64,000 bases of DNA, taken from Anaerotignum propionicum DSM 1682. Lineage in GTDB: Bacteria; Bacillota; Clostridia; Lachnospirales; Anaerotignaceae. Of this stretch, positions 10,243-25,670 are shown piece by piece. Under the pieces are notes generated by a model that had not been told where the DNA came from, did no database searches, and saw only the letters and a program-made list of their open reading frames with translations. Within the stretch, counting starts at the first letter, position 1; the number at the start of each line of letters is the position of its first letter. The stretch spans positions 1,860,001 to 1,924,000 of the forward strand of contig NZ_CP014223.1 in assembly GCF_001561955.1 (NCBI RefSeq), read 5' to 3'. The translations under genes and the position numbers were made by a program.

Positions 10243-10254
10243 AATTTCTCTCCT

Positions 10255-10587: not shown

Positions 10588-10598
10588 AACATTCTCCT

Positions 10599-11285
10599 TT
10601 ACTCCATTATAATTGATATAATTTCTTGCCGTATTTCATTTAGTTGATTGCTTTTTGCATTTCTTTCTCCTTGCGGCGGTAAAATAAATTGCTTTACAAG
10701 CTTACTTGGTCTTCCTGATAACACAAGAATGCGATTTGCCACAATGATAGCCTCATCAATTTCGTGCGTTATAAACAACACTGCCTGTTTACGGGCATTC
10801 CATACGCGTAAGAGCATATTGAGCATCTCGTGTCGTAAACAATAATCCAAACCCTGAAATGGTTCGTCCATCAAAAGAATTTCACTTTTATAGTAAAATG
10901 CCCTTGCAATTCCACACCTCTTTTTCATTCCTCCAGAAAGCTGGCACGGCTTGTATTGTTCAAAATTTTCCAGCCCAACATCATGAATCAGGTTTCTTAT
11001 TTCTTCTTTGTTTTCCTGATCATTTACCAGACTGATATTTTGCCAGACCGTTCTCCATGGCAAAAGTCTATCATCCTGAAATACAAATGAAATTGCATGG
11101 TCCGCTCCCGCAACGAAACCAGCCTTCGGTTTTTGAAGTCCGGCAATAATATTGAGCAAGGTGGATTTCCCACATCCTGATGGTCCTAGCACTGCAACGA
11201 TTTCATTATCCTCCACTTGAAAGCTAATGTTTTTTAATACAGGCAGCTCCCCAAAATTTTGGCTTATATCCTTTACTATTAGCAT
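10599..11285 (-). CDS. ABC transporter ATPase, SsuB/TauB/NrtD-like
   Basis: 228 residues. Walker A is GPSGCGKST near residue 34. The signature is LSGGMKKR, Walker B is EILLMDEPFQGLD and the switch histidine is in ITHE. It belongs to the nitrate/sulfonate/taurine importer ATPases and energises the permease encoded just upstream (coding ends overlap by 7 bases). The importer could take up a sulfonate, an aromatic acid, a pyrimidine precursor or an anion; the sequence does not decide. It shares an operon with the binding protein at 12015-13031. Confidence 0.9.
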   Translation of the reverse strand: MLIVKDISQNFGELPVLKNISFQVEDNEIVAVLGPSGCGKSTLLNIIAGLQKPKAGFVAGADHAISFVFQDDRLLPWRTVWQNISLVNDQENKEEIRNLIHDVGLENFEQYKPCQLSGGMKKRCGIARAFYYKSEILLMDEPFQGLDYCLRHEMLNMLLRVWNARKQAVLFITHEIDEAIIVANRILVLSGRPSKLVKQFILPPQGERNAKSNQLNEIRQEIISIIME

Positions 11286-12046
11286 TCTAAATTCCCCTTA
11301 TTCAAAAATAATTTCCTACAAAAAAAATCCGAAAGATAAAATAACATAACAATAACAATGGACCAGGCAATAATATTTTCCGGCTCAATATTAAGTCTTG
11401 CTAATTTAATCATTCCCCCTATGCCATCACTTGTTGTTAACACCTCTCCCATAACAGCAATCTTCCATCCGCTTCCCAATGCCACCTGAAATGCCGAATG
11501 AAAATATGGCATAATAGAAGGCAAAACCACATGCATGAAACGTTTTTTCTGAGAAAAGCGATAAAGCTGTGCCATTTGTAATAAATTTTTTTCAATATTG
11601 GAGATGCCTTCACAAATATTAATTGCAATAATCGGAAAGGTCGACGTTATCACAATAAAAATTGCAGGCCTTCCGTTAAAACCAAACCAAACAAGTGCCA
11701 ATACCACCCAAGAAACAGGTGGTATTGTTTGAAAAAGCCCTATGATTGGTGATAAAATCCCTTTCATATGAGAATTATATCCCATTATAATTCCTAATAT
11801 TAATCCTACTCCTATGCCTGCAGTAAGCCCTATTGTCAGCCTGATTACCGTAATTCCAATCATTTGGTAAAACTCTAACCCAGAAAAAATATGTAACAGG
11901 CTAGTAAAAACACTACTGATTGTTGGTACAACAAAAGGGGGGAAGAATAATGTAAACACCTTCCAAACTGCAAAGACAATGAAAAATGACAGCATCTTAT
12001 GAATTCTCTTTGAATTATTTTTCATCCACATAATATAATCTCGCAT
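11279..12046 (-). CDS. ABC transporter permease, SsuC/TauC-like
   Basis: Up to 255 residues with about six membrane segments. The EAA-type loop (ICEGISNIEKNLLQMAQLY and nearby residues) contacts the ATPase. The annotated ATG at 12046 overlaps the binding-protein gene by 32 bases. ATGs at 12031 and 12025 are alternatives, and no ribosome site clearly decides between them. It is the membrane subunit of the importer with its neighbours on both sides. Confidence 0.88.
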   Translation of the reverse strand: MRDYIMWMKNNSKRIHKMLSFFIVFAVWKVFTLFFPPFVVPTISSVFTSLLHIFSGLEFYQMIGITVIRLTIGLTAGIGVGLILGIIMGYNSHMKGILSPIIGLFQTIPPVSWVVLALVWFGFNGRPAIFIVITSTFPIIAINICEGISNIEKNLLQMAQLYRFSQKKRFMHVVLPSIMPYFHSAFQVALGSGWKIAVMGEVLTTSDGIGGMIKLARLNIEPENIIAWSIVIVMLFYLSDFFCRKLFLNKGNLEC

Positions 12047-13031
12047 CTGCTATTTTTCCGCCAATCATACTTGGATTAAAATCATACAACAGCTGATACA
12101 ACATTTCCAGCTCCGTCTGCGCATCCTGTGCCGACTTAAATTCCAAGCCCATATTTGGTAAGGATTTTTGTATCACAGCTGCTTTCAAGCCTAAATACTT
12201 TTCAGCTAACGCAGCAATTTCTTCTGGATGCTCGTTTGCCCAAGTAACAGATTCTTCATATGCGTTTTGGAAATCAGCAACTAACTCTGGATTTTCGTCG
12301 ATAAATTTTTGCGTTGTTCCAAATCCTGCATTAGGTATTTTTGTGTCTGTTCCAGTAACCCTTTGCCATTCATCTTCAAAGCTAAAAGCAATTCGCAAAT
12401 TTTCATTTCCCATTAAGGCCTTTGTTACCTGCGGCTCAATCAATGTTCCATAAACAGCCTCACCAGATGCAAGCAAGGTAGCTACTTCAGGCGTTGTTGC
12501 ATAAATTATTTCAACATCTTTTCCAACTTCCAAGCCTGCTTCTGCCAGAAAATATTGTGTTAACGCATCTGGAGGAGAAGACTGAAGAGGAATATATACG
12601 GTTTTTCCTTTTAAATCATCCCATGAATCAAAATCCGGATCGGATGTCATAAAATAAGTAACGCCCCAAGTATTTACATTCATCAAACGCACATCGAGCC
12701 CTTTGTTGTATAGCTTGGAAACAACAGTAAGAGGAAACGCAAACATATCATGCTCGCCATCTTGCACCATACCAATTAGAGTTTCTGGCTCATCCCAAAC
12801 ATCTAGCTTAATTTCAACATTCTCCCCCAATGCCTTTGTTTCTATCATATGCAAAATAGGTAAGGCTGGTGGTGCAGTGGGCACGCCAACTGTAATTGTT
12901 ACTGGTTCAGTCGCAGAAGTACTAGCAGTAGACTGAGTATCTGGATTTTCTGAATTTACATCTGCTTTTTGGCAACCAGCCAACCCAATGCACATACAGC
13001 CCGCAAGTAATAAAGATATTAGTTTTTTCAT
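12015..13031 (-). CDS. ABC transporter substrate-binding lipoprotein (NMT1/SsuA-like)
   Basis: 338 residues. The signal peptide ends in the lipobox LAGC near residue 20, so the protein is a membrane-anchored lipoprotein. The mature part has the two-lobe fold of NMT1/THI5/SsuA binding proteins: VGVPTAPPALPILHM binding-site start, DLKGKTVYIPLQSSPP hinge region and an ASGEAVYGTLIEPQV segment. It is the first gene of an eight-gene minus operon (importer, cupins, activase, split permease). It is transcribed away from the Crp/Fnr gene at 13179, with paired palindromes between. Ligand unknown. Confidence 0.9.
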   Translation of the reverse strand: MKKLISLLLAGCMCIGLAGCQKADVNSENPDTQSTASTSATEPVTITVGVPTAPPALPILHMIETKALGENVEIKLDVWDEPETLIGMVQDGEHDMFAFPLTVVSKLYNKGLDVRLMNVNTWGVTYFMTSDPDFDSWDDLKGKTVYIPLQSSPPDALTQYFLAEAGLEVGKDVEIIYATTPEVATLLASGEAVYGTLIEPQVTKALMGNENLRIAFSFEDEWQRVTGTDTKIPNAGFGTTQKFIDENPELVADFQNAYEESVTWANEHPEEIAALAEKYLGLKAAVIQKSLPNMGLEFKSAQDAQTELEMLYQLLYDFNPSMIGGKIADARLYYVDEK

Positions 13032-13116: not shown

Positions 13117-13149
13117 AGAATATATTAGCATTTTTATTCTGAAAATTCG

Positions 13150-13163
13150 GTTGCTATAGCAAC
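13150..13163. promoter_or_regulatory. GTTGC-N4-GCAAC palindrome (island motif)
   Basis: Perfect 14-base palindrome GTTGCTATAGCAAC, just before the ribosome site of the regulator gene at 13179. The half-sites and 4-base gap equal those at 18673, 20257 and (with T/A change) 25645. Its position downstream of the likely promoter suggests autorepression. Confidence 0.65.
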
Positions 13164-13178
13164 AAAAAGGAGGAAAAT

Positions 13179-13829
13179 ATGAAACAATATTTATCCATTC
13201 TAAAACAAATGCCTTTATTCGCATCCTCAGATGAAGATGCTATTGTAAATATTATTCAATGCCTTGACGGGCATACAAAAAAATTTGATAAAAATCAAAT
13301 TATCTATGACTATTTTGATAAAATAAATTTTGCAGGAATTTTACTAGATGGAGAGATTCGTGTCCTCATGCAAAATTCCTGTGGGAATGAATATAGTGTG
13401 CGAAAAATTATAAAAGGCAGTCTTTTTGGAGAAGCATATGCTTGCGTATCATCCGAATGTTCAGCCATTCAAGTTGTAGCACAAAAGGAAAGTACGATTT
13501 TATTTCTAAAGTTTTCAAACCTTTTTCTTCCTCGTGCAGTTTGTTGCCCACATGCTTCTAGAGTTACAGCAAATCTTCTCCAAGAAACTGCAAAAAATAA
13601 TATTTTTCAAAACCAAAAACTTCGTATATTAACACAAAAACATATCCGAGATAAAATAATTGTTTATCTTTATAGTTTGAATTCATCCAAAAACACCATT
13701 ACTTTGGCCTTTAATCGACAAGAGCTAGCAAACTATTTAGGCGTAGAACGAAGTGCTTTATCCCGAGAATTATGCAGAAAAAATGAAGGATTAATTGATT
13801 TTCACAAGAATAATTTAACAATTTTATAA
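13179..13829 (+). CDS. Crp/Fnr-family regulator
   Basis: 216 residues. The N-terminal cyclic-nucleotide-binding-type barrel (residues about 10-120) carries cysteines in EAYACV and AVCCPH. The C-terminal winged HTH has the recognition segment NRQELANYLGVERSALSREL. A good GGAGG site precedes the ATG. It is divergent from the importer/activase operon, and the intervening DNA holds three palindromes. The recognition helix is nearly that of the regulators at 18735 and 20372, consistent with a shared binding motif. The likely signal is redox, NO or a ligand sensed through cysteine and histidine; this is inference. Confidence 0.88.
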   Translation: MKQYLSILKQMPLFASSDEDAIVNIIQCLDGHTKKFDKNQIIYDYFDKINFAGILLDGEIRVLMQNSCGNEYSVRKIIKGSLFGEAYACVSSECSAIQVVAQKESTILFLKFSNLFLPRAVCCPHASRVTANLLQETAKNNIFQNQKLRILTQKHIRDKIIVYLYSLNSSKNTITLAFNRQELANYLGVERSALSRELCRKNEGLIDFHKNNLTIL

Positions 13830-14051
13830 GAAGTCTTGTTTAAGTAAATTTATCATAATTTATAATCCAATTCTCATTACTTCCAAAGAATATGTTGGGC
13901 ACCCAAATAATTTTACAAAAGGTCAATTGTAACAAGCCGTCTACGATGCATTATAGCTACTCATTGATCTATCAATTTTTTGAATATTTCCATTTTTGTG
14001 TCGTCTAAAACGTTCTTGGATATGGCTAGTGAAAAATTATAATGCAAATAT

Positions 14052-14088
14052 AAAAAGCAAAGATTCCAATGTTAATCAGAATCTTTGC
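14052..14088 (-). terminator. Terminator of hcp
   Basis: Perfect 10-bp stem GCAAAGATTC with GAATCTTTGC around a 12-base loop, followed on the minus strand by TTTTTATA. It ends the cupin-rubredoxin-hcp transcript 25 bases after the hcp stop. The remaining DNA back to 13830 shows nothing further. Confidence 0.85.
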
Positions 14089-14113
14089 CTTTAATTTAAA
14101 ACTTCATTACAAA

Positions 14114-15745
14114 TTATTCGCCCATAAACAACTTAATATCATCTTCAACTTGTCCAATACCTGCGATGCCAAACTTCTCAACAAGAACCTTTGCAACGTT
14201 AGGAGATAAAAATCCCGGCAACGAAGGACCAAGGTGAATATTTTTAACACCTAAATAAAGCAATGCAAGTAATACAATTACGGCTTTTTGCTCATACCAA
14301 GCAATATTATATGCAATCGGCAGGTCGTTAACATCCTCAAGTTCAAATATTTCTTTTAGCTTCAGTGCGATTACTACAAGAGAATAAGAGTCATTACATT
14401 GCCCAGCATCAAGAACTCTTGGAATACCACCAATATCTCCTAGCTCAAGTTTATTATAACGGAACTTTGCACATCCCGCAGTGAGAATAACTGTATCCTT
14501 AGGGAGTTTTTTCGCAAACTCAGTGTAATACTCACGGGATTTCATTCTGCCATCACAGCCTGCCATAACAAAGAACTTTTTAATTGCTCCGGATTTTACT
14601 GCATCCACCACTTTGTCTGCAAGAGCAAAAACTTGATTATGTGCAAAGCCGCCAACAATACTACCTGATTCAATTTCTACAGGAGGCTTACACTGCTTTG
14701 CCATAGCAATGATTTCAGAAAAATCCTTTTTACCATTTTCATCAGCTGTGATGTGAGGACATTCAGGATAACCCGATGCACCAGAAGTAAAGATTCTTTT
14801 TCTGATTTCCTCACTTCTTGGAGGTACAATACAGTTTGTTGTAAACAGAATCGGTCCATTAAAGGGTTCAAATTCGGTAACTTGCTGCCACCAGGAACCG
14901 CCGTAATTTCCAGCGAAATTGTCATACTTTTTGAAGAAAGGATAGTAATGTGCTGGAAGCATTTCACCATGAGTATAAACATCAACGCCCGTGTCTTTTG
15001 TTTGTTCCATAAGTTGCTCTAAATCAGTAAGGTCATGACCTGAAATTAGTATGCCAGGGTTATTTCTAACACCAATATTAACACTGGTGATTTCAGGATT
15101 TCCATATTTAGAAGTATTTGCTTCATCTAACAGTGCCATGACCTTAACACCAAACTCGCCTGTCTTTAATGTTAAAGCCACAAGATCATCTGCCGACAGC
15201 GAATCATTGAGGGTAGCGTCAAGTGCTTCATAAATAAATGCATTGATATCAATATCTTCTTTGCCAATATTAAGAGCGTGATGGGCATATGCTGCCATAC
15301 CTTTTAAACCGTAAATAATCATTTCTCTAAGAGAACGAACATCTTCATTTTCAGTTGAAAGTACACCTACTTTTGATGCCTTTTCCAACATAGATGCTCT
15401 GTCACTCACTTCAAATGCCGCCGCATCACTGAAGGTAACACCATGTACCTGTTTTTTCAACTCATTTCTAAGTCCAATCATCTTATTAATTTGAACTTCG
15501 ATTGCATCACCATCAAAATTAGCATTTGTAATGGTAATAAAAAGACTTTTTAAAACTTCATGATTTACTTCACTTATAGATTTGACATCCAGCTTGCCCT
15601 TCACAACTACCTCAGAAATTCCTTTTGTAACATAAATCAATAAGTCTTGCAATTTTGCAACTTCCTCATTTTTGCCACATACACCTCTTATCTCACAACC
15701 CGTACCTTTTGCAGTTTCTTGACATTGGTAACAAAACATACTCAT
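14114..15745 (-). CDS. hcp: Hybrid cluster protein (hydroxylamine reductase / NO-stress protein)
   Basis: 543 residues. The N-terminal cluster cysteines C5, C8, C17 and C23 (C-x2-C-x8-C-x5-C) are intact. Hybrid-cluster ligand regions are visible later in the chain: [50 protein letters not shown] and [10 protein letters not shown]. Hcp reduces hydroxylamine in vitro and protects against NO, either as NO reductase or as protein S-nitrosylase. It is the last gene of a cupin-rubredoxin-hcp operon; the rubredoxin gene 19 bases upstream probably encodes an electron donor. A second, longer Hcp is encoded at 23116-24960. Confidence 0.96.
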
Positions 15746-15764
15746 AATTGTTCCCTCCTTTGTA

Positions 15765-15929
15765 CTATTTTTTTACTGGTTCAAACTCATCTTTACCCAC
15801 AAAACAAATTGGACAAACCCAATCATTAGGAATATTTTCAAAAGCAGTCCCTGGAGCTATACCACTATCAGGATCGCCTATTTGTGGGTCATAGATATAT
15901 CCGCATGGGACACATATATATTTTAGCAT
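15765..15929 (-). CDS. Rubredoxin
   Basis: 54 residues. Both iron-binding knuckles are present, [10 protein letters not shown] near residue 6 and [12 protein letters not shown] near residue 39, with the usual family length and the aromatic core (Y, W). It carries one electron at a Fe(Cys)4 centre in the cytoplasm. It has a ribosome site (GGAGG) before ATG 15929. It lies between the cupin and hcp genes, so it is a good candidate electron donor to Hcp or to the di-iron protein at 19476. Confidence 0.95.
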
Positions 15930-15963
15930 TTCGTTCCTCCTTTCAATGTTTGTGGTTTTTTAA

Positions 15964-16278
15964 CTATTTCAAGGGTGCCGGTGCTTTTACAACAATTAGC
16001 TCCAATACTTTTTCAGATAAATTTTTTACAATCATCTTTGTGCTAACAGGAATCTTTAAAAGAGTTCCTTTATCATACTGATGAACATCTTGATCATTTA
16101 GTCCAATAGATAAAGTCCCCCTTACCACAGTCATATAAACGTTCGAATTAGAAAAATGTTCAGGGAGCCCTTGATCTTTATGAAAGACCATATGAATATA
16201 ATGAATATTTTCATCCTGAATTACTTTTTCAACCGCTTTTTCATCTCCAGTTGACATTTCATAAATTTGCTCGATCAT
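15964..16278 (-). CDS. Cupin-domain protein
   Basis: 104 residues with a single cupin barrel. It has HMVFHKDQGLPEHFSNSNVY (first motif, with histidines) and DKGTLLKIPVSTKMIV for the second motif, where the usual His is missing. First gene of the cupin-rubredoxin-hcp operon. This is the third of four cupins in the island and always adjacent to redox genes; a metal-binding or ligand-sensing role is possible. Confidence 0.82.
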   Translation of the reverse strand: MIEQIYEMSTGDEKAVEKVIQDENIHYIHMVFHKDQGLPEHFSNSNVYMTVVRGTLSIGLNDQDVHQYDKGTLLKIPVSTKMIVKNLSEKVLELIVVKAPAPLK

Positions 16279-16420
16279 TTTTATACCTCTTGTTCATTAT
16301 TTATAGTTTTAAATTGTAATTATATAGATGCTTATTCATTAGTTCCATAATGTTTAAGTATCTAATGGTTAAATTATACAACAAATTTTGACAAATGTAT
16401 ATCATTTTCCAACAATTTCT

Positions 16421-17134
16421 TTATTCGTTATAATGAATGGCTTGAACGGGACAAGCCATTATTGTTTGGCTAAGCCTCTCTCTGTCTATTTCAAAGTCAA
16501 AAGATTTTACATATGCTTTTTTACCTTGCATACCAAAAATCTCTGGGTAATTTCTGCTGCACATTGTACATCCCATGCAAAATTCCTTGTTTAATGTAAG
16601 TCCATTTGTTTTTTCTTCTTTCTGTACGATATCTTCGTCCTTCACAATTTTTGCAGTAACCCACGAAAATACCACTATCGCAATTACGGTTAATACCCAA
16701 CGAATTGCCATAAACTTCATACCCAAAAATTTCACTTCGTTTAAAAGCATTGGAACCTTTATTACTGCCCACGAGCTTAAAATTATAACCAAATTTCGTA
16801 CAGAAGCCCCCTTTTTGTGAAGCATGACACACATAGGAAATGCTGCATATATGGGTCCCGCAGATATGCTGCCTAAAACAAACGACAATATAATACCATT
16901 AACTTTGGATTCTTTTCCTAAGTATTTTGTGATTTTTTCCTTTGCAATCCATGTATCCAAAAGTGCAGTTAGAACAAAAATCACCGGCATTATCATAAGC
17001 ATTTCTTTAATATAATAAGCACTGTTTTTCATTGATGTAACACCCATCGTTGGTTTAATTAAAAACATCAGGATATAGGCAGCTGCAACCACGATCAAGA
17101 AAATATTATCTTTCGCTTTTTTTAAGATTTTCAT
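16421..17134 (-). CDS. Split permease, second half, fused to a ferredoxin domain
   Basis: 237 residues. The first 175 match the second permease half at 4912-5460 (shared GSISAGPIYAAFPMCVML motif). The last 60 form a ferredoxin-type domain with CMGCTMCSRNYPEIF and a final MACPVQAIHYN, enough cysteines for one [4Fe-4S] cluster. The start ATG at 17134 overlaps the stop of the first-half gene. A cytoplasmic iron-sulfur domain on a permease suggests that transport is coupled to, or gated by, redox state. This fusion is absent from the paralogue at 4912. Confidence 0.82.
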   Translation of the reverse strand: MKILKKAKDNIFLIVVAAAYILMFLIKPTMGVTSMKNSAYYIKEMLMIMPVIFVLTALLDTWIAKEKITKYLGKESKVNGIILSFVLGSISAGPIYAAFPMCVMLHKKGASVRNLVIILSSWAVIKVPMLLNEVKFLGMKFMAIRWVLTVIAIVVFSWVTAKIVKDEDIVQKEEKTNGLTLNKEFCMGCTMCSRNYPEIFGMQGKKAYVKSFDFEIDRERLSQTIMACPVQAIHYNE

Positions 17135-17613
17135 ACAATCACCCCCATTACCATAGCGATAATTATGGCAAATATAAAACTTAATCCATTTCTGGTTGCA
17201 GTAAATTTAAGCCCAAATTCACGCCTTTCAAGTGGAAATGTTACAACCCCTACCATAGTAAGTGTAGTTAGAAATGCTACGGAAGGAACAATACTAACCC
17301 CGGCGTCAACCAGTGTACCGACAAGCGGAAAAGCAATAAAGGCAGGGATCAGTGTAATTGTTCCAAATGCCGCTGATCCCACTGTTGCTATAAACAAGGA
17401 TTGACTTCCTACAAATTTGGCAATGTTTTCTGGCGGTAATATTGTTAAAATCAAACCGATTAAAAAAATAATCGATAATATGCTTCCCAACATCCCCTTT
17501 CCCATACCAAATGCCATTTTAAGCGCTTTTAGTGTCTTAGCTTTATCCTTTTTTAAGGAAATCAAAAGGAATATCATCGTTCCTATCCACATTGCTGCTG
17601 TAAATATATCCAT
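17131..17613 (-). CDS. Split permease, first half (DUF318/ArsP-like)
   Basis: 160 residues from ATG 17613, which follows GGGGGA; the open frame continues 14 codons upstream without a ribosome site. Four or five membrane segments; motif GTITLIPAFIAFPLVGTL near residue 93, matching the paralogue at 5460. Its last four bases overlap the start of the second half. It is divergent from the Crp/Fnr gene at 17725. Confidence 0.82.
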   Translation of the reverse strand: MDIFTAAMWIGTMIFLLISLKKDKAKTLKALKMAFGMGKGMLGSILSIIFLIGLILTILPPENIAKFVGSQSLFIATVGSAAFGTITLIPAFIAFPLVGTLVDAGVSIVPSVAFLTTLTMVGVVTFPLERREFGLKFTATRNGLSFIFAIIIAMVMGVIV

Positions 17614-17670
17614 ACAAATCCCCCATTCTTTTTTGATAACACAATTATAAAACAATTTATAATCCTCAAA

Positions 17671-17699
17671 TAGACACCGATGTTTCTTTTTGATATAAT
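17671..17699 (+). promoter_or_regulatory. Sigma-A-type promoter of the crp-like gene
   Basis: TAGACA at 17671-17676, a 17-base spacer, then TATAAT at 17694-17699. This is one mismatch from consensus with ideal spacing, 26 bases before the start codon at 17725. Confidence 0.8.
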
Positions 17700-17724
17700 G
17701 TTTTTAAATGGAGGATTAATACAC

Positions 17725-18372
17725 ATGAATATTGACATTTTACGAAACATTCCATTATTTTCAGCTATAAAAGAATCTGATTTAGAAAAACAAACGGAAG
17801 GCAATCATATTTATCAAAAACACTATATGAAAGGTGTAACCGTTCATAATGAAAATGAAACTTGCCGTATATTAGATATTGTATTGTCAGGAAGTTTAGT
17901 TGCCTATTCTTTATCAACGAATGGTTCATCAACTACGATATTTGAATTTAGTAAGGGAAGTGTAATCGGAGCTAATTTATTATTTGGTGAAAACCACAGT
18001 TATCCTCTTAATATCTATTGTCTTACAGATTGTCAAATAATCCACGTTGACATAAATGCTGTTTTAGAATTTTTGCACGACTACAATTTTACATTGCATT
18101 ATATAAGGTCAATTTCACAAAATTCACAAGGAATTAATCAAAAAATAGCAATGTTTACGCAAAGAACGCTTCGAGAAAATATTATGGATTATTTTAAACA
18201 GCAAGCTATCCTACAGAAATCTTCGGTAATTTTAATTCCAATGAGTAAAAGACAACTGGCAGACTATTTGGGGGTACAAAGACCATCCCTGTTTCGAGAG
18301 CTTAAAAAATTAAAAGATGAGGGTTTTATCGAAATTAATAACCATACAATCACAATAAAAAAAGAATACTGA
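17725..18372 (+). CDS. Crp/Fnr-family regulator
   Basis: 215 residues from ATG 17725 behind GGAGG; an upstream start is less likely. The N-terminal sensor barrel is followed by a winged HTH with SKRQLADYLGVQRPSLFREL. It lacks the C-x3-C-x-H-H signature of the regulators at 18735 and 20372, so it may sense something else. It is divergent from the permease/ferredoxin pair and lies beside the hcp operon, which suggests local control of those genes. No GTTGC-type palindrome is present in its upstream DNA. Confidence 0.87.
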   Translation: MNIDILRNIPLFSAIKESDLEKQTEGNHIYQKHYMKGVTVHNENETCRILDIVLSGSLVAYSLSTNGSSTTIFEFSKGSVIGANLLFGENHSYPLNIYCLTDCQIIHVDINAVLEFLHDYNFTLHYIRSISQNSQGINQKIAMFTQRTLRENIMDYFKQQAILQKSSVILIPMSKRQLADYLGVQRPSLFRELKKLKDEGFIEINNHTITIKKEY

Positions 18373-18420
18373 AAAAAGGAATCATACAGCAAGGTAAAAC
18401 CGCTGATTGATTCCTTTTTT
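18372..18420 (+). terminator. Intrinsic terminator
   Basis: Stem AAAAAAGGAATCA with TGATTCCTTTTTT around a 23-base loop, directly after the regulator stop codon. Works well on the plus strand because of the final T6. Confidence 0.85.
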
Positions 18421-18483
18421 AAATAGTAAAGTTAATTAAATCTAGCATCATAATCTATTGTCAACTTACTATAAAAACCAGCT

Positions 18484-18645
18484 TACGACAATTCACTTTC
18501 AACAACCATTTCTATTTTAGAAACATTAATAATATCTATATCAGGACAGTAAAAACGTATGGCTCCTTCATTGCACAATAGTGTTTTCCATCCATATCAT
18601 AAAATGTCTACATACAGGAACCTCTGCGACAGCACTTTTGGGCAC
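18484..18645 (-). pseudogene. Possible gene scrap in the 314-base gap
   Basis: On the minus strand a peptide ending NEGAIRFYCPDIDIINVSKI runs to a TAA near 18486, with a stop and frame shift upstream. It could be the tail of a lost gene. No family is recognised. The rest of the gap up to 18672 shows nothing else. Confidence 0.25.
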
Positions 18646-18672
18646 TATTTCTCATCTCACTAAATAAACACC

Positions 18673-18696
18673 TATATGTTGCCCTTGCAACATATA
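18673..18696. promoter_or_regulatory. TATATGTTGC-N4-GCAACATATA palindrome (island motif)
   Basis: Perfect 10-bp arms with a 4-base gap, 38 bases before the regulator start codon. A TATACT -10 candidate at 18708-18713 places the site over the -35 region, which suggests autorepression. Contains the common GTTGC-N4-GCAAC core. Confidence 0.75.
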
Positions 18697-18734
18697 AAAA
18701 TTTGATTTATACTCCTTTCAAGGAGGTGGTCTAA

Positions 18735-19400
18735 GTGCATGACGTTTATCTCAAACAACTTCAGAAAATGCCATTATTCGAGGGAATCAAGGAGACCGAA
18801 ATTAATTCTGTGCTTACTTGTCTGGGAAGCTATTTACGATCCTATAAAAAGGGAGAACTTATTTTTCTTGCAGGTGAATCAATAAAATCTGTTGGCGTCA
18901 TTTTAAGTGGAGCTGTTAATATGATTAAAGAGGACATTTGGGGCACCCAAACCCTTATCGTTTCCATGAAAACAGGAGAAATATTCGGAGAAACTTTTGC
19001 ATGTGGAAACCTTTCCGACTCTAAAGTTACTTTTGCTGTAGGCGCAGACTGTTTGATTTTATTTCTTCCTTATAGCAAGGTCTTACATTCTTGCAGCATG
19101 TCCTGCACCTTTCATCATCGGTTAATCGAAAATATGGTAGGTCTTATTAGCAGTAAGAATGTCCAACTGATAGAAAAAATCGAAGTAACCTCTAAAAAAA
19201 CTTTGCGTGAAAAAATTTTGACCTATCTTTCCATTCAGTCACAACAGCAGGGATGTTCCTATTTTGATGTTCCTTTGGGACGTCTTGAGATGGCAGCTTA
19301 TCTATGTGCAGACCGCAGCGCATTAACCCGTGAATTATCACAAATGCGTTCCGAGGGCCTGTTAGACTTTGAAAAGAATACATTTCATCTTTTAAAATAA
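18735..19400 (+). CDS. Crp/Fnr-family regulator with Cys/His sensor motif
   Basis: 221 residues. The start is GTG 18735 with AGGAGGTGG directly before. Sensor barrel at residues about 10-120 with cysteine in ETFACG and the cluster CSMSCTFHHRLIENM near 116. The winged HTH holds GRLEMAAYLCADRSALTREL. The C-x3-C-x-H-H group recurs in the regulator at 20372 and could bind iron, heme or an iron-sulfur cluster; this is inference. A perfect palindrome lies just upstream. HcpR-type regulators of this family control hcp in other anaerobes. Confidence 0.88.
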   Translation: MHDVYLKQLQKMPLFEGIKETEINSVLTCLGSYLRSYKKGELIFLAGESIKSVGVILSGAVNMIKEDIWGTQTLIVSMKTGEIFGETFACGNLSDSKVTFAVGADCLILFLPYSKVLHSCSMSCTFHHRLIENMVGLISSKNVQLIEKIEVTSKKTLREKILTYLSIQSQQQGCSYFDVPLGRLEMAAYLCADRSALTRELSQMRSEGLLDFEKNTFHLLK

Positions 19401-19475
19401 AATAATAATTAGCCCCAAATTTTAGTTTTAACTCTTTTACAACGGTTATACCTATTACACTTGTGATATGACCAA

Positions 19476-20180
19476 TTAAACCACTGTGCATTCTATTTTA
19501 TAAAGAGCAAAAACATCATCCAATTTTCCTGTCAAAATTACGCCATGCCCAGGGGCGATAGATTTCAAATTCAAGTCTGCCAAGCCCAAGACAGCGCGTT
19601 TTTCATTGGGAGTTGCCTGTGCAAATACTTTGTCGAAATATGTTTTCGCTCCTTGTAAAACGCTATCATTGGTATAGTCTTTATCCAAGGGGGGTTCGCA
19701 TCCCAAATATTGCCCAAACAAATCATTAGAAAACAAAATTTGCTCATTTTCAAAATAAGTGACCATATTATCATCCCAATGTAATCCTGGCGTATGGGTA
19801 AAGCGGAACTCAAATGTTCCAATTTTCAAAGTAGATAAATTAGTAACTTCTATAAAATTTGCATTTGGATAACGAGAAACCAAGCGATGTTTGCAAGCTG
19901 CTGTGCAGTAAATTGGAATATCTGCCCTGTCAGACAGCAATAGTCCAAGAGCTCCACTATGATCCTCCTCGGAATGATTAAGGATGATGGCATCCAACTG
20001 GCTAAGAGGAACTAATTGTTTTAATTCAGCCATGAACACCTCTCCAGCTTTTTCAGGAACAGTATCAATAAGCACATTTTTTTCTCCCCTCAGGAGATAC
20101 GCCAAAAATGAAAAACTACGATCCGGCTTTTGGATAACCTTTCCGAGAACTGTACACATTTCTGAAATTGAATAATGCAT
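19476..20180 (-). CDS. Stand-alone oxygen-binding di-iron (flavodiiron-type) protein
   Basis: 234 residues. It is the metallo-beta-lactamase-fold half of FprA/NorV flavodiiron proteins, with iron ligands visible in HSEEDHSG (near 69), HTPGLHWDDN, FSNDLFGQY and APGHGVIL. The flavodoxin (FMN) half, normally some 150 further residues, is absent, and the stop is not followed by flavodoxin sequence. Family members reduce O2 to water or NO to N2O. Without FMN it needs an outside donor, perhaps the rubredoxin at 15765 or ferredoxin at 25377. A perfect GTTGC-type palindrome lies upstream. Confidence 0.88.
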   Translation of the reverse strand: MHYSISEMCTVLGKVIQKPDRSFSFLAYLLRGEKNVLIDTVPEKAGEVFMAELKQLVPLSQLDAIILNHSEEDHSGALGLLLSDRADIPIYCTAACKHRLVSRYPNANFIEVTNLSTLKIGTFEFRFTHTPGLHWDDNMVTYFENEQILFSNDLFGQYLGCEPPLDKDYTNDSVLQGAKTYFDKVFAQATPNEKRAVLGLADLNLKSIAPGHGVILTGKLDDVFALYKIECTVV

Positions 20181-20256
20181 AAATCTTCCTCCTTTTATTC
20201 ATGATTGATTTAGTTATGTTAGTGATAGTTATAGTTTAACATAAGCTTCTCTTTAT

Positions 20257-20276
20257 AATGTTGCGTGCGCAACATT
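20257..20276. promoter_or_regulatory. AATGTTGCG-TG-CGCAACATT palindrome (island motif)
   Basis: Perfect 9-bp arms, 77 bases before the di-iron protein start. A TAAACT -10 candidate at 20233-20238 is 31 bases from its centre, near the spacing expected when a Crp/Fnr protein activates from about -41.5. The -10 match is weak. Confidence 0.72.
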
Positions 20277-20281
20277 AAATT

Positions 20282-20315
20282 AAAAAAGGTGGAAACATTA
20301 TTGTTTGCTCCCACC
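20282..20315 (-). terminator. Terminator of the crp-like gene at 20372
   Basis: On the minus strand GGTGG...AAACA-ATAA-TGTTT CCACC forms an interrupted stem followed by TTTTTT. It separates the regulator gene from the di-iron gene downstream. Confidence 0.75.
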
Positions 20316-20371
20316 ACTTCATTTTTTTCAAGCGTAACTGGCTTTTCCTTGTATGTCCAACATAATAAATT

Positions 20372-21037
20372 TCACTCCAAGTCGGATTTAATACAAAAGT
20401 GGTTTCTATGAACCGTTATCAGCCCTTCCCGTTGCATTTTGCTTAATTCATTCGAAAGCGCACTGCGGTCTACGCTTAAGTAATCGGCCAACTGCTGCCG
20501 ATTAAAAGGGATGTCAAATTCACGTCTACCCTCACGAGTGGCCTGGAAAGAAAGATAAGAAAGTAACCGCCCGCGAATAGACTTTGCTGAAGTATGAAAA
20601 ATACGACGGGATAAAGTTAAATTCTTCTGAGCCGAAATTGTCAACAGGTTACGAATTAACTTTCCATGGTGTCCGCAGGCGGATGAACACGGTTGTAATG
20701 TTTTGGCTACATTCAGAAATAAAACCACTGTGCTTTCAGCAGCCACAGCACTAACCATCAAGGGTTCTCCCGGCGCACAGGCATAGGTTTCCGCAAATAC
20801 TTGGCCATGTCCGATTTTATCTAAAACACTTTTATTTCCCCAGAGATCATCGTGCTCAATAGAAACACTACCGGTTATTACTATCCCAATTTTAGGGACA
20901 GTATCACCTGCACGGTAAATCACTTCATCTTTTTGGTAGCATTTTTCTTCCGCCAACAGGCAGCCCAACATAGAAGTCACTTCTTCTGGTGTAATTCCAC
21001 GAAACAAACTTGTATTTGATAAAAAAAGAGCATCCAT
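20372..21037 (-). CDS. Crp/Fnr-family regulator with Cys/His sensor motif
   Basis: 221 residues, paralogue of the product of 18735-19400. Shared features are the sensor barrel with AETYACA, the cluster CSSACGHHGKLIRN near 112, and a winged HTH with NRQQLADYLSVDRSALSNEL. It lies between the di-iron gene and the hcp2 operon, all on the minus strand. Its own upstream DNA has no GTTGC-type palindrome, so it may be expressed constantly and act on the neighbours. Binding to the shared palindrome is likely but untested. Confidence 0.88.
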   Translation of the reverse strand: MDALFLSNTSLFRGITPEEVTSMLGCLLAEEKCYQKDEVIYRAGDTVPKIGIVITGSVSIEHDDLWGNKSVLDKIGHGQVFAETYACAPGEPLMVSAVAAESTVVLFLNVAKTLQPCSSACGHHGKLIRNLLTISAQKNLTLSRRIFHTSAKSIRGRLLSYLSFQATREGRREFDIPFNRQQLADYLSVDRSALSNELSKMQREGLITVHRNHFCIKSDLE

Positions 21038-21171
21038 CTTTATCCCACCATTTCATATTACACATTTTTCATTTGCTAAGGCTATGATACTATGAGCAGA
21101 GGAGCAAGTCGATCAATAGCGTTGATTTTCAGCTATATTTCTAGAATATTTTTTAGTGAAAAAAATGGGCG

Positions 21172-21858
21172 TTACTGTACCTTAACCTCGGGATTCTTTT
21201 CCCCAAACTTCTCCATCAATTCCTGTTCAATTTCCCTGCACTGCTTTCCTGATTTCTCACGAGTCTTGATTAGCTTATATGCTTGAAATAGCTGTGACGG
21301 TCCGATTTCCGAACTAAAATAACCAATTCCCTGATTCCACGCCAGAAGTTCAAAGACATCATCCAACGCAGCAGAATCAAGCCCATGGATATACGCCTTT
21401 ACCAATTCTCTCGTTGCCTGACGCATTCGCCCCGCACCCACAGCATTGGTCAAAGAAAGCAACAGCCGCATCTCGTAAGGTAACGTTCGCTTTTGGTCAT
21501 TCCATGTAAGATCCCAAAAGTCCACAGCTATTTGGCCCAGCCTTTCATCAATCATGGGATAGTTCAGCAAAGCCAAGGGGCGGAAGGGAGCCATTTCAGC
21601 CGTCTCCGTCTCCTGCACGCGGTAGAAATAAATATGAAACTCATCCGCTCCCACTTGTTTTGCAAAATGTTCAAATCCCAGAGCTTCCATGGGTGCATAA
21701 AGGGGTAGTGGCTCAAAGGTTTGAATAATTGTTAACCCAGAACCTTTGCTCAAACCACCAGCACGTTTTTGCAATCCGGGAAAAAAATTTCCTTGTAGGT
21801 GGCGAACATCAATGCATTCAAAATTTGAAATTTGATCCTTCCATTGTTCAAAGCCCAT
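21172..21858 (-). CDS. DUF2249 domain protein with CMD-like C-terminus
   Basis: 228 residues. Residues about 15-75 match the DUF2249 pattern (IDVRHLQGNFFPGL, then GSGLTIIQTFEPLPLYAPME). The C-terminal 110 residues are helical and resemble a carboxymuconolactone-decarboxylase/AhpD-like fold (SLTNAVGAGRMRQATRELVK) without the CxxC pair, so no peroxidase activity is expected. DUF2249 proteins often occur with hemerythrins and Hcp in NO-response loci. Last gene of the hcp2 operon, 24 bases after the hemerythrin gene. Confidence 0.75.
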   Translation of the reverse strand: MGFEQWKDQISNFECIDVRHLQGNFFPGLQKRAGGLSKGSGLTIIQTFEPLPLYAPMEALGFEHFAKQVGADEFHIYFYRVQETETAEMAPFRPLALLNYPMIDERLGQIAVDFWDLTWNDQKRTLPYEMRLLLSLTNAVGAGRMRQATRELVKAYIHGLDSAALDDVFELLAWNQGIGYFSSEIGPSQLFQAYKLIKTREKSGKQCREIEQELMEKFGEKNPEVKVQ

Positions 21859-21882
21859 AATATTGTCCCTTCTTTCTTTAAA

Positions 21883-22440
21883 TTAGCAATATTTTTCTAT
21901 AAGCTGCTTTAGCAAGTTCAAAGCGGTTTCCTGAATCCCCTTCTCTTTTGCTTGACTTTCAAAAAGCTCCACTTCACTGTTTATACTTTGCAAAACATCA
22001 TCCGTAAGGCTGCGGCCTGCAAAGGTATAGACTACGTTATCCTCTTTGTCTATATGACGTTGTAACAGGTTCACCCATGCACCTGCATTCACCAGAATTT
22101 CCAGCTTGTCCAGAGTATTCGGCGTGGACTCATAACGCCCTAATGCGCTTTCAAGCTCCCCTAAATGAAACCTTCCCATATCATGCTCAACCAACATGCC
22201 GTTTTGAATCAGCTTCACGGCAGCGGTACCCAGTCTACCCATCATCTCTCGGAACAAAATCTGCTCCTCTTTTCCATGATGATGTTGATCCGCATAGGTT
22301 CGTGCAAATGTAATCATATCCCGAAAATCATTTACTTCCACAGGATCACCCTCTAATATACGACAACACGCATTACGGATTACCGCTACAAGGGAAAGAA
22401 TATTTTTATGCTCCTGCACCATTAAATCAATAGAATTCAT
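21883..22440 (-). CDS. Hemerythrin-like di-iron protein
   Basis: 185 residues, four-helix HHE-type hemerythrin. Candidate iron ligands are QEHKN near residue 10, DQHHHGKEEQILF near 55, VEHDMGRFH near 85 and RHIDKEDNVVY near 130. Such proteins bind O2 or NO at a di-iron centre or help repair iron-sulfur clusters (RIC/YtfE group). The partner domain of RIC (ScdA N-terminal, DUF1858-like) is not fused here but is present at the end of the Hcp encoded upstream in the same operon. The start at 22440 is 3 bases after the preceding gene's stop. Confidence 0.88.
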   Translation of the reverse strand: MNSIDLMVQEHKNILSLVAVIRNACCRILEGDPVEVNDFRDMITFARTYADQHHHGKEEQILFREMMGRLGTAAVKLIQNGMLVEHDMGRFHLGELESALGRYESTPNTLDKLEILVNAGAWVNLLQRHIDKEDNVVYTFAGRSLTDDVLQSINSEVELFESQAKEKGIQETALNLLKQLIEKYC

Positions 22441-22443
22441 TTT

Positions 22444-23049
22444 TTACACCTCCTGAATGAGAAACTGCTTGTCTATTTGCTGAAAAGAAAAACCACTGCC
22501 TGAAAGACTTCCTAAAATAAAGGCACCTCGCAATAAATAATAGTTTTCAATCTTTCCGCCTACTGCATCCCAAAAAGGCAAATGCAAATCCACCGTCTGG
22601 TGCCAAAGAACATGTTCTGCGCTCTGTTCCAAAATTTCATTGACATGGTCACAGGGCATACCCTCCAACAGTACATCATTCAATGCGCGGTAAACTGCTT
22701 GGGCATCACTAGAAGCAGGCAACGGATTTTGCAACCCCAGTTGAAATGCTGCCTGTTTGAGCTTTTCAATTTGTGTAGTATCGTTATGCAAAATTTCTGT
22801 CACTGCGGCGGCAAAGCGTTTCTCCGCAATGCCGATTTGGCTTTGCAACCAACCATGGATATTTCCGTTATCTATCACTTGTTCCAATGGGCGTCGTTCA
22901 ACAATTCCATAAACGGTATTCAGCTTATTTTCCAAGGCGGTACGATCGTCCTCAGACGAAATGGAAGACAGCATTGCTTCCGTCAAGCTCTCCTGTAACT
23001 GAATTTTGCGGTAAAGCCAGTAATGAATTGGCCCTAAAAACGCACTCAT
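22444..23049 (-). CDS. Unrecognised protein of the hcp2 operon
   Basis: 201 residues from ATG 23049, which has GGGATGA before it; the 10-codon longer frame has none. No known family is recognised. It is predicted mostly helical and soluble, with a conserved-looking N-terminus (MSAFLGPIHYWLYRKIQLQE) and a CDHVNEILEQSAEHVLWHQT stretch rich in Cys and His that could bind metal or heme. It is tightly packed between hcp2 and the hemerythrin gene, so a role in NO or hydroxylamine handling is likely by context only. Confidence 0.8.
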   Translation of the reverse strand: MSAFLGPIHYWLYRKIQLQESLTEAMLSSISSEDDRTALENKLNTVYGIVERRPLEQVIDNGNIHGWLQSQIGIAEKRFAAAVTEILHNDTTQIEKLKQAAFQLGLQNPLPASSDAQAVYRALNDVLLEGMPCDHVNEILEQSAEHVLWHQTVDLHLPFWDAVGGKIENYYLLRGAFILGSLSGSGFSFQQIDKQFLIQEV

Positions 23050-23115
23050 ACGCTCATCCCTTTCTAAAAATGTGGTCATGGAACAACAAAGTATCCCATG
23101 ACCTTAATCTTAAAC

Positions 23116-24960
23116 TTATCCGTTTACCTTATCATTAACAGCTTTTAGCACATCATTCACATTTAAGCCATGAACCATACATGCATCTGACAAAGTCTCC
23201 ATCTGGGAGGAAGGACAACCCAGACAATGCATTCCACACTCCATCAGTGCAGGAGCGGTTTCAGGGTATTTGCGCAAAATATCGCCCATAATCATATCAC
23301 CACTAACAGCGTCGGTTGTGGCAGCTTCATCAAAAAACAGCTTTAAATCGTCCTCTACTGTTCCAATCCCTGCAATGCCGAAATTCTCCACCAATACCTT
23401 TGCTACATTCGGGCTAAGGAAGGCAGGAAGTGTTGGCCCTAAATGAATATTTTTTACACCCAGATGCAATAAAGCCAGAAGTACAATCACTGCCTTTTGT
23501 TCATACCAAGCAATGTTATAAACAATTGGCAAATCGTTAATGTCCTCCAATCCAAAAACCTCTTTCAGCTTTAGGGCAATCACAACCAAGGAGTAGGAGT
23601 CATTGCACTGTCCCGCATCCAATACGCGGGGAATCCCGCCGATGTCACCTAAATCAAGCTTGTTATACTTATACTTGGCACAACCTGCGGTGAGGATAAC
23701 CGCATCCTTGGGCAGAGCCTTAGCAAAGTCAGTATAATAATTACGGCTTTTGGAACGACCATCACAACCTGCCATAACCACAAACTTTTTGATTGCACCG
23801 GATTTCACAGCCCCAACCACTTGATCAGCCAGAGCCAGAACTTGGTTGTGTGCAAAGCCGCCGATGATTTCTCCAGTTTCAATTTCTGTTGGAGCTACAC
23901 AACGTTTTGCTTGTTCAATGATTTCAGAGAAATCCTTTTCCTCTCCGACTGCACCAGAAATATGCTTGCAACCAGGGAAGCCTGCCGCACCAGTGGTATA
24001 CAGACGATTTTTATAGCTATCCTTAGGAGGAACGATACAGTTGGTAGTCATGAGAATCGGGCCATTAAAGGACTCAAATTCTTCTTTCTGTTTCCACCAA
24101 GCATTCCCGTAGTTACCCACAAAATTGGAATACTTCTTAAATGCAGGATAGTAGTGAGCAGGAAGCATCTCCGAGTGAGTATATACGTCCACACCGGTTC
24201 CTTGGGTCTGCTGAAGCAGCATTTCCAAATCTCTCAGGTCATGCCCGGAAATCAAAATACCTGGGCGAGAACCCACGCCAATGCTTACCTTGGTAATCTC
24301 GGGATTGCCATAGGCTTGTGTATTGGCCTTGTCCAGCAGAGCCATACCGGAAACACCATACTTTCCAGTTTCCAGTGTCAGCGCCACCAAATCGTCTGCG
24401 GAAAGCTTATCATCCAGAGTGGCAGACAAAGCACGCTGGAGAAAGGCATCAACTTCAGTATCTTCTTCCAGCAAAACGTTGGCATGCTTGGAGTAGGCAG
24501 AAAGTCCTTTTAAACCATAAGTAATCAGTTCACGCAAAGAGCGAATATCTTCATTTTCTGTAGAAAGCACACCTACCATAGCCGCCTTTGCCTCAAATGT
24601 AGCTTCATCTCCATCCCAATGTGCCGCCTCAGGCAACATTTGGCCGTTTCTTACTTGGGCAAGCAGTTCACGCTTTGCATCCAGTGTTGCACGGATACGG
24701 GCTGTGATAGCTTCTTTATCAAAGTTGGCGTTGGTAATCGTTATGAAAAGATTTAATGAAATCAAATGATTTATTGCGGAGGAAACCTCCCCACCCTGGA
24801 CGCGAAGGGCCGTAGTAACAGCTGACAGACCCTTAGTTACATATATTAATAGATCCTGCATTGCAGCAACATCGGGCTTTTTGCCACAAACACCCATCTG
24901 AGTGCATCCAGTACATCCTGCAGTTTCCTCACATTGATAACAAAACATTTTATTTTCCAT
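23116..24960 (-). CDS. hcp: Hybrid cluster protein with C-terminal DUF1858 domain
   Basis: 614 residues. The first 545 are an Hcp closely related to the one at 14114, with cluster cysteines C7, C10, C19 and C25 and all later hybrid-cluster motifs ([28 protein letters not shown]). The last 60 are a DUF1858 / prismane-associated redox-disulfide domain with [18 protein letters not shown], usually a separate small protein. The fusion suggests direct disulfide-linked electron delivery to, or regulation of, the hybrid cluster. Third gene of the operon ferredoxin-cupin-hcp-unknown-hemerythrin-DUF2249. GGAG precedes ATG 24960. Confidence 0.95.
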
Positions 24961-25022
24961 GGTTATTACTCCTTTATCTTCATATGATTTTAATTTTTAT
25001 CGTTTTTATCATTTGTTTTCTA

Positions 25023-25364
25023 TCAGCTCACTGGTGGAAAAACAACGGTAAGCATCATTTTGAAGGCTTCTTTGGCAAATACCGCATGAGGTTTCTTTGC
25101 AGGCATAATCAAGGTCTCCCCTGCACTCAAAACGTATTCAGAGCCATCCACAGTGAACTGACCTGTTCCTTCCAATACCAAAACCATTGCATCACCGCTA
25201 GAATCATGAGAGCTGATTTCCTCACCTTTCGAGAATGCAAAAAGAGTAATGCTGATATGGTGATTTTGTGTCAGCGTTTTACTTACAATTTGCCCAGCTT
25301 GAACAGAAACTTCGTCTTTTAAAAACAAGGCTGCTTCATGTTCTATGTTTTTGATATAATTCAC
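25023..25364 (-). CDS. Cupin-domain protein
   Basis: 113 residues. Cupin motifs: GEEISSHDSSGDAMVLVLEG and AGETLIMPAKKPHAV. Closest relative in the window is the cupin at 9910-10242, which means the two redox operons each carry a homologous cupin. It lies between ferredoxin and hcp2 genes. Ligand unknown. Confidence 0.85.
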   Translation of the reverse strand: MNYIKNIEHEAALFLKDEVSVQAGQIVSKTLTQNHHISITLFAFSKGEEISSHDSSGDAMVLVLEGTGQFTVDGSEYVLSAGETLIMPAKKPHAVFAKEAFKMMLTVVFPPVS

Positions 25365-25376
25365 TCAAGAACCTCC

Positions 25377-25565
25377 TCAGTCATCGTTTTCGATGGCATT
25401 CACAGGACAGCCACTTTGGGCCTGTGCGGCTGCATCCAGCACATCTGTGGGAACTTCTTTTTTGGAAGCAATTGCAATCCCTGCATCCGTCATTTCAAAA
25501 ACCTCTGGACAAGCCATTGCGCATAACCCACACCCGATACAACTGTCGTTCACAAAATACTTCAT
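25377..25565 (-). CDS. Ferredoxin, single [4Fe-4S]
   Basis: 62 residues. The motif CIGCGLCAMACPEVF at residues 9-23 and a later GCPVNAI supply the four ligands of one cluster, with one cysteine spare. A soluble low-potential electron carrier and first gene of the hcp2 operon, so a likely electron donor to Hcp. GGAG lies before the ATG, and a palindromic operator and -10 lie about 60-105 bases upstream. Confidence 0.93.
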   Translation of the reverse strand: MKYFVNDSCIGCGLCAMACPEVFEMTDAGIAIASKKEVPTDVLDAAAQAQSGCPVNAIENDD

Positions 25566-25622
25566 AAGAACATCTCCTTTTCAGAATCACTCGTTAAAAT
25601 GTTATTTTTATTTGTTGACACA

Positions 25623-25670
25623 ATAATATCATGTAATTCACAACATTTATGTTGTTAAAACAACATAAAT
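25623..25670 (-). promoter_or_regulatory. hcp2 operon promoter with class II Crp/Fnr operator
   Basis: ATTTATGTTGTT-AA-AACAACATAAAT at 25645-25670 is a perfect palindrome with the core GTTGT-N4-ACAAC. A minus-strand TATTAT at 25623-25628 sets +1 near 25616, which puts the palindrome centre at about -41.5, the classic position for activation by Crp/Fnr. A second, overlapping palindrome CAACAT-TT-ATGTTG spans 25641-25654. Confidence 0.75.

Follow-up and report, generated by a model that had tools for sequence, protein, structure and literature searches.

GTTGY-N4-RCAAC palindromes beside Crp/Fnr genes of Anaerotignum propionicum: candidate operators of HcpR-type activators in two box classes

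The palindromes and the genes around them

A stretch of 64,000 nucleotides from Anaerotignum propionicum DSM 1682 (NZ_CP014223.1, positions 1,860,001 to 1,924,000), hereafter the window, harbors four exact matches to the palindrome GTTGYN4RCAAC, at 13150-13163, 18678-18691, 20260-20273 and 25651-25664. The surroundings comprise the hcp2 operon, an ABC-transporter operon that includes two cupin genes, two hcp genes, one ODP-family gene and four genes for Crp/Fnr regulators (C1 to C4). Shuffles of the window give 0.26 matches on average and two at most, none of 100 containing four, and the window holds no exact match outside these four places. A first-pass annotation had described four palindromes with one core and a 4-base gap, absent elsewhere in the window, each preceding a likely target and accompanying Crp/Fnr regulators with an RSAx recognition helix. 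The number and the gap are backed by the shuffles, the absence elsewhere is borne out, and both the targets and the regulators are supported, the helices RSALSREL, RSALTREL and RSALSNEL being present in three of the four proteins as claimed. The core, however, is not the same throughout, as three boxes read GTTGC/GCAAC and the fourth, at 25651, reads GTTGT/ACAAC. Of the start positions given earlier, 13150 was correct, but 18673, 20257 and 25645 were 3-6 bases too early because flanking palindrome letters had been included. The features needed below are listed with window coordinates; residues of the recognition helix carry CRP position numbers, which were taken from PMC1274295.

9910..13031, minus strand: NMT1-like binding protein, permease, ATPase and two small cupins, predicted target of the 13150 box
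13122..13127, minus strand: TAATAT, -10-like, at exact class II spacing from the 13150 box, towards the ABC-transporter operon
13150..13163: box GTTGCTATAGCAAC, GTTGC class, 15 bp before the C1 start and at -41.5 of the divergent ABC-transporter operon
13179..13829, plus strand: Crp/Fnr regulator C1, helix ERSALSREL (R180 S181 R185)
17680..18372, plus strand: Crp/Fnr regulator C2, helix QRPSLFREL (P181), likely start at the later ATG 17725
18678..18691: box GTTGCCCTTGCAAC, overlapping the -35 element of C3, centre at -35.5
18685..18713, plus strand: promoter-like TTGCAA-17-TATACT of C3, a consensus match with its -35 within the box
18735..19400, plus strand: Crp/Fnr regulator C3, helix DRSALTREL (R185), with the full Cys3-His set described below
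19476..20180, minus strand: ODP-family gene with a flavodiiron-type beta-lactamase domain, predicted target of the 20260 box
20260..20273: box GTTGCGTGCGCAAC, placed at -40.5 of the ODP gene by TAAACT at 20238-20233 (minus strand)
20288..20315, minus strand: terminator-like hairpin after C4, from a consensus scan
20372..21037, minus strand: Crp/Fnr regulator C4, which closes the hcp2 operon, helix DRSALSNEL (N185)
21172..25565, minus strand: hcp2 operon without C4, six genes, presumed to be co-transcribed
25623..25628, minus strand: TATTAT, -10-like, at exact class II spacing from the 25651 box
25651..25664: box GTTGTTAAAACAAC, GTTGT class, at -41.5 of the hcp2 operon

Distribution across the genome

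The 3.12 Mb genome contains 38 copies of GTTGYN4RCAAC, and 16 of the reversed control pattern. Thirty copies lie inside predicted reading frames and eight are intergenic. All eight intergenic copies, found in five places, adjoin crp/fnr, hcp, ferredoxin, desulfoferrodoxin or flavodiiron-type genes. Those outside the window are given here with genome coordinates.

26506: box between Crp C5 and genes for desulfoferrodoxin and an 842-residue flavodiiron-oxidoreductase fusion
720894: box between Crp C6 and an FrdX-type ferredoxin gene
1258330: box of the second hcp operon, with Crp C7
1460431: box of the third hcp gene (hcp3)

Since the eight intergenic copies sit at such genes genome-wide, the box set is not a local one, as had first been proposed, and the arrangement also recurs across the order. 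A random scatter of the motif over the genome had been named beforehand as the outcome that would speak against a regulon. The genome-wide search found such a scatter in part for the bare 14-mer, most of whose copies are in frames, but not for the intergenic copies, nor for the box combined with a -10 element at exact spacing (GTTGN6CAAC plus -10), which has seven matches in the genome, five of them in the set and two extra.

Spacing to promoters and target genes

The -10 elements are consensus matches, and distances were calculated with +1 set seven bases past the -10. A box centre at -41.5 corresponds to the class II arrangement. This is the position found at 13150, 25651, 720894, 1258330 and 1460431 (TATACT in the last), so that TAnnnT stands exactly at the class II position in five of the eight own-genome sites, and one base to either side of it in two more. 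The earlier claim that the copy now placed at 25651 is centered at -41.5, fit for activation, is confirmed by the spacing of TATTAT (25628-25623, minus strand).

The same geometry was found in relatives. In a first set, TAnnnT on either strand occupies the class II offset in 26 of 29 sites. A second set comprised 76 box-bearing regulators, all pairs of which share less than 75% identity, and here a -10-like element stands at class II distance on the divergent side in 68 cases and on the regulator side in 8. The three fixed letters of this -10 reach 1.48, 1.76 and 1.72 bits, the highest of the 40 positions compared. Across the order, and in some Coriobacteriia, the box is directly upstream of the regulator gene, the -10 mostly facing away from it. 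The 72 divergent genes called, which were assigned to classes by sequence pattern in a script, comprise 29 FrdX-type ferredoxins, 17 Hcp, 5 desulfoferrodoxins, 2 cupins, 2 rubredoxins and 17 others; 46 of the 72 are therefore FrdX-type ferredoxin or Hcp. Geometry and targets together match what would be expected of an HcpR-type class II activator. A third half-site, GTTG, lies six bases promoter-ward of the box in 9 of the 76 relatives, compared with none or one at nine other offsets (2-11).

At 13150, the -10 at the conserved distance points away from the regulator, and for this reason activation of the divergent ABC-transporter operon is the likeliest role of this copy. The genes of that operon (9910..13031) are probably co-transcribed, judging from their spacing. 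The earlier view that this copy is placed for repression is doubtful, or half of the picture, as TAATAT at class II distance serves the divergent operon. Two of the divergent genes classed as others in the relatives (L211, L226) resemble, by eye, the lipoprotein starts of binding proteins. At 18678 the box overlaps the -35 of the regulator gene itself, and autorepression of C3 is probable. The proposal that this copy is placed to repress is thus the simplest reading there, and it is the only such copy. At 20260, the hairpin at 20315-20288 parts C4 from the ODP gene, which suggests that the latter is probably its own transcription unit, with its own promoter and a GTTGC address.

Two box classes and residue 185

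In an alignment of 172 regulators of this group, CRP positions 180, 181 and 185 correspond to C4 residues 191, 192 and 196 and to FNR residues 208, 209 and 213. Boxes were counted for those regulators that have Arg180 and whose DNA could be located, and 60 stretches with further relatives were taken from a longer match list. C8 and C9 of the own genome, which belong to other Crp families, the 92-residue fragment L088, and repeat loci of included proteins (such as L131-L133, L135, L138, L142, L148, L149, L152 and L156) were left out.

A count of all upstream 5-mer palindromes with a 4-base gap, made with no preset motif, places GTTGC at the top for regulators with S181 and R185 (29 of 42) and GTTGT at the top for those with S181 and neither Arg nor Lys at 185 (37 of 66). 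After clustering at 70% identity, the R185 regulators have GTTGC in 25 clusters, another box in none and no box in 9. Those with neither Arg nor Lys have GTTGC in 1, another box in 38 (26 GTTGT, the rest GTTGA, GTTGG or asymmetric) and no box in 6. The Lys185 clusters divide into 1 with GTTGC, 2 with GTTGT, 3 asymmetric and 7 without a box, and none of the 11 P181 clusters has one. The single A181 and the single T181 box that occur beside R185 are both GTTGC. For the split between residue 185 and the box, Fisher's test gives 6e-17, ignoring relatedness. In a scan of the protein columns whose gap share does not exceed 30%, base 5 is best tracked by residue 185 (z 19.9, runner-up 13.4) and box presence by residue 181 (z 11.6; the runner-up, 10.4, is the adjacent column).

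The single shared box first proposed is therefore not supported, base 5 being divided between C and T in step with the regulator's residue 185. With the helix columns excluded from tree building, the residue trait and the box trait each change seven times. Of the seven independent pairs, the two on well-supported branches were scored; averaged over random pairings, 1.8 of them show a box change in the direction of the residue change, and none shows the reverse. The rule linking residue 185 to base 5 is thus a strong association whose independence from ancestry is weakly shown. In the window, the GTTGC boxes at 13150, 18678 and 20260 would fit C1 and C3 (Arg185), and the GTTGT box at 25651, which serves the operon encoding C4, would fit the Asn185 of C4; which paralogue reads which box within the cell is what we infer from these residues.

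Boxes of other lettering were seen as well. The Lys185 regulators L082, L192 and L218 have GTGGT-N4-ACCAC boxes, and the Butyrivibrio regulators (L066-L081), with a helix that is mostly T181 K185, have mostly GTTGT/ACCAC hybrid boxes. Both represent a further step of the same covariation of helix and box.

The sensor domain

Four residues of the sensor domain, C26, C117, C121 and H124 in C4 numbering (the Cys3-His set), are all present in 118 of the 172 proteins and all absent in 35. Clustering at 70% leaves all four in 79 of 114 and none in 18, compared with 40.4 and 0.3 predicted from independent columns, so that the four columns are retained or missing as a set, relatedness having been removed by this clustering only. 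The Butyrivibrio regulators lack every one of the four. None of the FNR cysteines 20, 23, 29 and 122 aligns with C26, C117, C121 or H124 of C4. The AlphaFold model containing the four Cys/His residues has a mean pLDDT of 89.7. The simplest reading is that they form a metal site, perhaps one holding an iron–sulfur cluster.

Comparison with known regulators

Rodionov et al. (2005) predicted HcpR2 as the regulator of hcp and frdX in Clostridia, with the general box GTAACnnnnGTTAC (PMC1274295). The present proteins resemble HcpR and HcpR2 of that report in being Crp/Fnr regulators of anaerobes encoded next to hcp and frdX, in the pairing of R180 with G3 and in a residue 181 that tracks the box. 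They are two-domain Crp/Fnr proteins without the FNR cysteine motif, and their genes lie beside hcp or frdX with the box upstream of these. They differ in the box, which is GTTGYnnnnRCAAC here rather than GTAACnnnnGTTAC, and in the correlated residues, those named in passages of PMC1274295 being 180 and 181, with 185 not among them. That text leads to the expectation of another box for Ser181 members, as Ser181 is paired in C. thermocellum and C. difficile with another motif, the letters of which are in their Figure 3. The GTTGY box may thus already be present in that figure as the Ser181 motif. According to the same source, residue 185 contacts DNA in CRP. Neither a GTTG-type HcpR box nor a rule linking residue 185 to a base was found in passages of the running text of PMC1274295, PMC12915319, PMC12750200 and PMC5045206.

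In C. difficile, HcpR has been confirmed by a mutant and RNA-seq; it controls frdX-hcp, and the hcpR mutant is eightfold more sensitive to nitric oxide (NO) (PMC12915319). One predicted site lies among its regulated genes, and passages of that paper carry no motif letters. A. propionicum differs in having six S181 paralogues and two box classes. HcpR of P. gingivalis is an NO-activated regulator of hcp with Met68 as the proposed heme ligand (PMC12750200; PDB 9day). The top matches of a profile search were, in this order, Lmo0753, 1o5l (4.9e-19) and this protein, 9day (4.9e-18), and in a fold search 9day_A had the best TM-score (0.78) among the 50 matches listed. The heme-type feature is not shared, as the position of Met68, which aligns with residue 62 of C4 if a 14-residue tag is assumed, is Met in 1 of the 172 proteins. 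FNR of E. coli belongs to the same fold family, and its four cysteines for a [4Fe-4S] cluster are not found here; the site at -41.5 of the target promoter, a class II feature, is present with regard to the predicted -10 elements. The set is best read, by the likeness of its targets, as an HcpR-type regulon that is a variant of the known one.

Proposed mechanism and alternatives

In the proposed model, the palindromes would serve as operators for HcpR-type Crp/Fnr activators, whose role would be to defend the cell against NO and oxygen. The dimer would bind GTTGY-N4-RCAAC centered at -41.5 and activate, in class II fashion, a divergent or downstream target (hcp, ferredoxin, flavodiiron, desulfoferrodoxin or ABC-transporter genes), and a box that falls within the regulator gene's leader or covers its -35 could damp the regulator. 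The GTTG core would belong to Ser181, and base 5 to residue 185, so that Arg185 would specify GTTGC and other residues mainly GTTGT, giving two address classes in the window, one (13150, 18678, 20260) for C1 and C3 and the other (25651) for C4. Taken as a whole, HcpR-type activators of NO and oxygen defense with two box classes set by residue 185 are the best explanation, and one that we regard as probable; binding, activation or repression, and NO as the signal are its inferred parts. A more far-reaching proposal is offered tentatively, and may well prove wrong. It holds that six Ser181 sisters in one cell would be kept apart by the lettering of residue 185 and base 5 (Arg185 with GTTGC, Asn185 or Leu185 with GTTGT), would be partly split by target, and that five of the six would sense through a previously undescribed Cys3-His metal site instead of heme or an FNR cluster. 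In the own genome the targets appear to split in part, with desulfoferrodoxin, ODP and the ABC transporter on one side and hcp and ferredoxin on the other; in relatives, the targets of Arg185 regulators include Hcp in 5 of 21.

Several observations weigh against the proposed activator model. At 20260 the -10 element TAAACT is weak and one base off class II spacing, and at genome 26506 the TATCAT lies one base further than class II, a shift in the opposite direction. In the 29 sites of the first set, TAnnnT also occurs at offsets -3, -5 and -8 (19, 18 and 15 sites), because of repeated TATA-like runs. C1 departs from the Cys3-His set (C26, C87, Cys120, Cys121) and is on a long branch. At 95% clustering, 12 of 44 R185 regulators have no box within 260 bp, L140 (Ile185) and L110 (Lys185) are exceptions with GTTGC, and the class without R185 also holds the GTTGA, GTTGG and asymmetric boxes. 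The sign test on independent pairs gives p 0.5, significance being out of reach, so that independence from ancestry is weakly tested; other protein columns also correlate with base 5, and the box at genome 1460431 is mixed, with one half GTTGT and the other GTTGC. These last three points would also be explained if GTTGY were read without distinction by every S181 paralogue and the C or T were inherited lineage noise, as would the mixed boxes of L143, L144, L145 and L147. This reading is nevertheless unlikely, given that 70% clustering leaves a division of 25:0 versus 1:38, that each trait changes seven times on the best tree, and that the single best column is a residue that contacts DNA in CRP (PMC1274295).

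It could also be argued that the boxes, located 15-43 bp ahead of regulator starts, are mainly autorepressor sites that silence the regulator. Most boxes of the 76 relatives are indeed upstream and near the regulator start, as is the one 15 bp before C1, and that of C3 covers its -35. The conserved-distance -10 nevertheless faces away from the regulator in 68 of the 76 and towards it in only 8, and the first gene downstream of 20260, 25651, 1258330 and 1460431 is a non-regulator, which makes such a general role improbable. Chance or codon usage as the source of palindromes without function deserves hardly any credence. The 30 of 38 genome copies in frames and the 16 matches of the reversed control would accord with it, but no shuffle of the window had four matches, all eight intergenic copies are at one functional group, and position and spacing are kept across the order. 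If the activator model is true, it would yield a rule, open to testing, that leads from helix to box to NO- and oxygen-defense genes in a large group of anaerobe regulators. Paralogues with a common box core may be insulated through one contact, and the Crp/Fnr fold may contain a new gas-sensing metal site.

The hcp2 operon and other neighboring features

The genes of the hcp2 operon ahead of C4 are all on the minus strand.

25377-25565: ferredoxin
25023-25364: cupin
23116-24960: hcp2
22444-23079: gene with no assigned family
21883-22440: hemerythrin
21172-21858: DUF2249-like gene, under the Pfam cut-off

The operon had been described as six-gene, which is correct for the genes before C4; counting C4, there are seven up to the terminator-like hairpin. 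Another terminator-like hairpin, at 23074-23103 (minus strand) between hcp2 and the next operon gene, is possibly a point of partial termination. The product of 22444-23079 has no Pfam or NCBIfam match at E 0.001, and this gene is kept in both hcp operons of the genome. Proteins of A. neopropionicum and Anaerotignum sp. MB30-C6 match C4 (20372-21037) at 100% identity. A near-complete second hcp2 operon is found at genome 1258330-1263824 (L028), with ferredoxin, cupin, hcp, the gene of no assigned family, hemerythrin, Crp (C7) and ODP, and no DUF2249-like gene was called in it. The third half-site GTTGT, six bases promoter-ward, is also present at 25640-25664 and at genome 1258330.

Four Coriobacteriia records (L064, L065, L073, L084) have the same regulator and a GTTGT box, with a divergent hcp in three of the four. 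L065 has no divergent gene called, and a fifth record, L085, is without the box. The regulator, GTTGT box and hcp may thus have crossed phyla as a unit.

C2 probably does not read the GTTGY box. At 16421-18372 it adjoins two ArsP-type permease genes, one with a C-terminal ferredoxin domain, which resembles the permease and ferredoxin beside an HcpR2 paralogue at C. tetani CTC0896-0898 (PMC1274295). No GTAAC box was found at the C2 locus. The HcpR2 box GTAACnnnnGTTAC, considered as the partner of P181 in C2, was rejected, being absent from the C2 promoter. It is not enriched in the window (22 matches with up to two mismatches, 19.4 expected) and, with up to one mismatch genome-wide, it is rarer than the control (74 versus 308). 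Among 15 P181 regulators with DNA, one (L240) has a GTAAC-like box.

The 18-mer ATGTTGN6CAACAT was discarded as a sharper motif, with too many loose matches at two mismatches (220 versus 137 for the control). With one mismatch, the composite of box and -10 does not outnumber its reversed control (28 and 32 versus 40 and 29), so that it cannot pick out members alone; among these matches, 599552 was re-examined and lies in a frame. The two extra exact composite matches were not counted as members, that at 570370 being inside a reading frame and that at 905039 preceding an XRE-type repressor gene. The palindrome at genome 905039 (L119), GTGTTGATTTGTCAACAC, stands before this repressor gene and a recombinase-like gene, and is probably the operator of that XRE/recombinase-like element.

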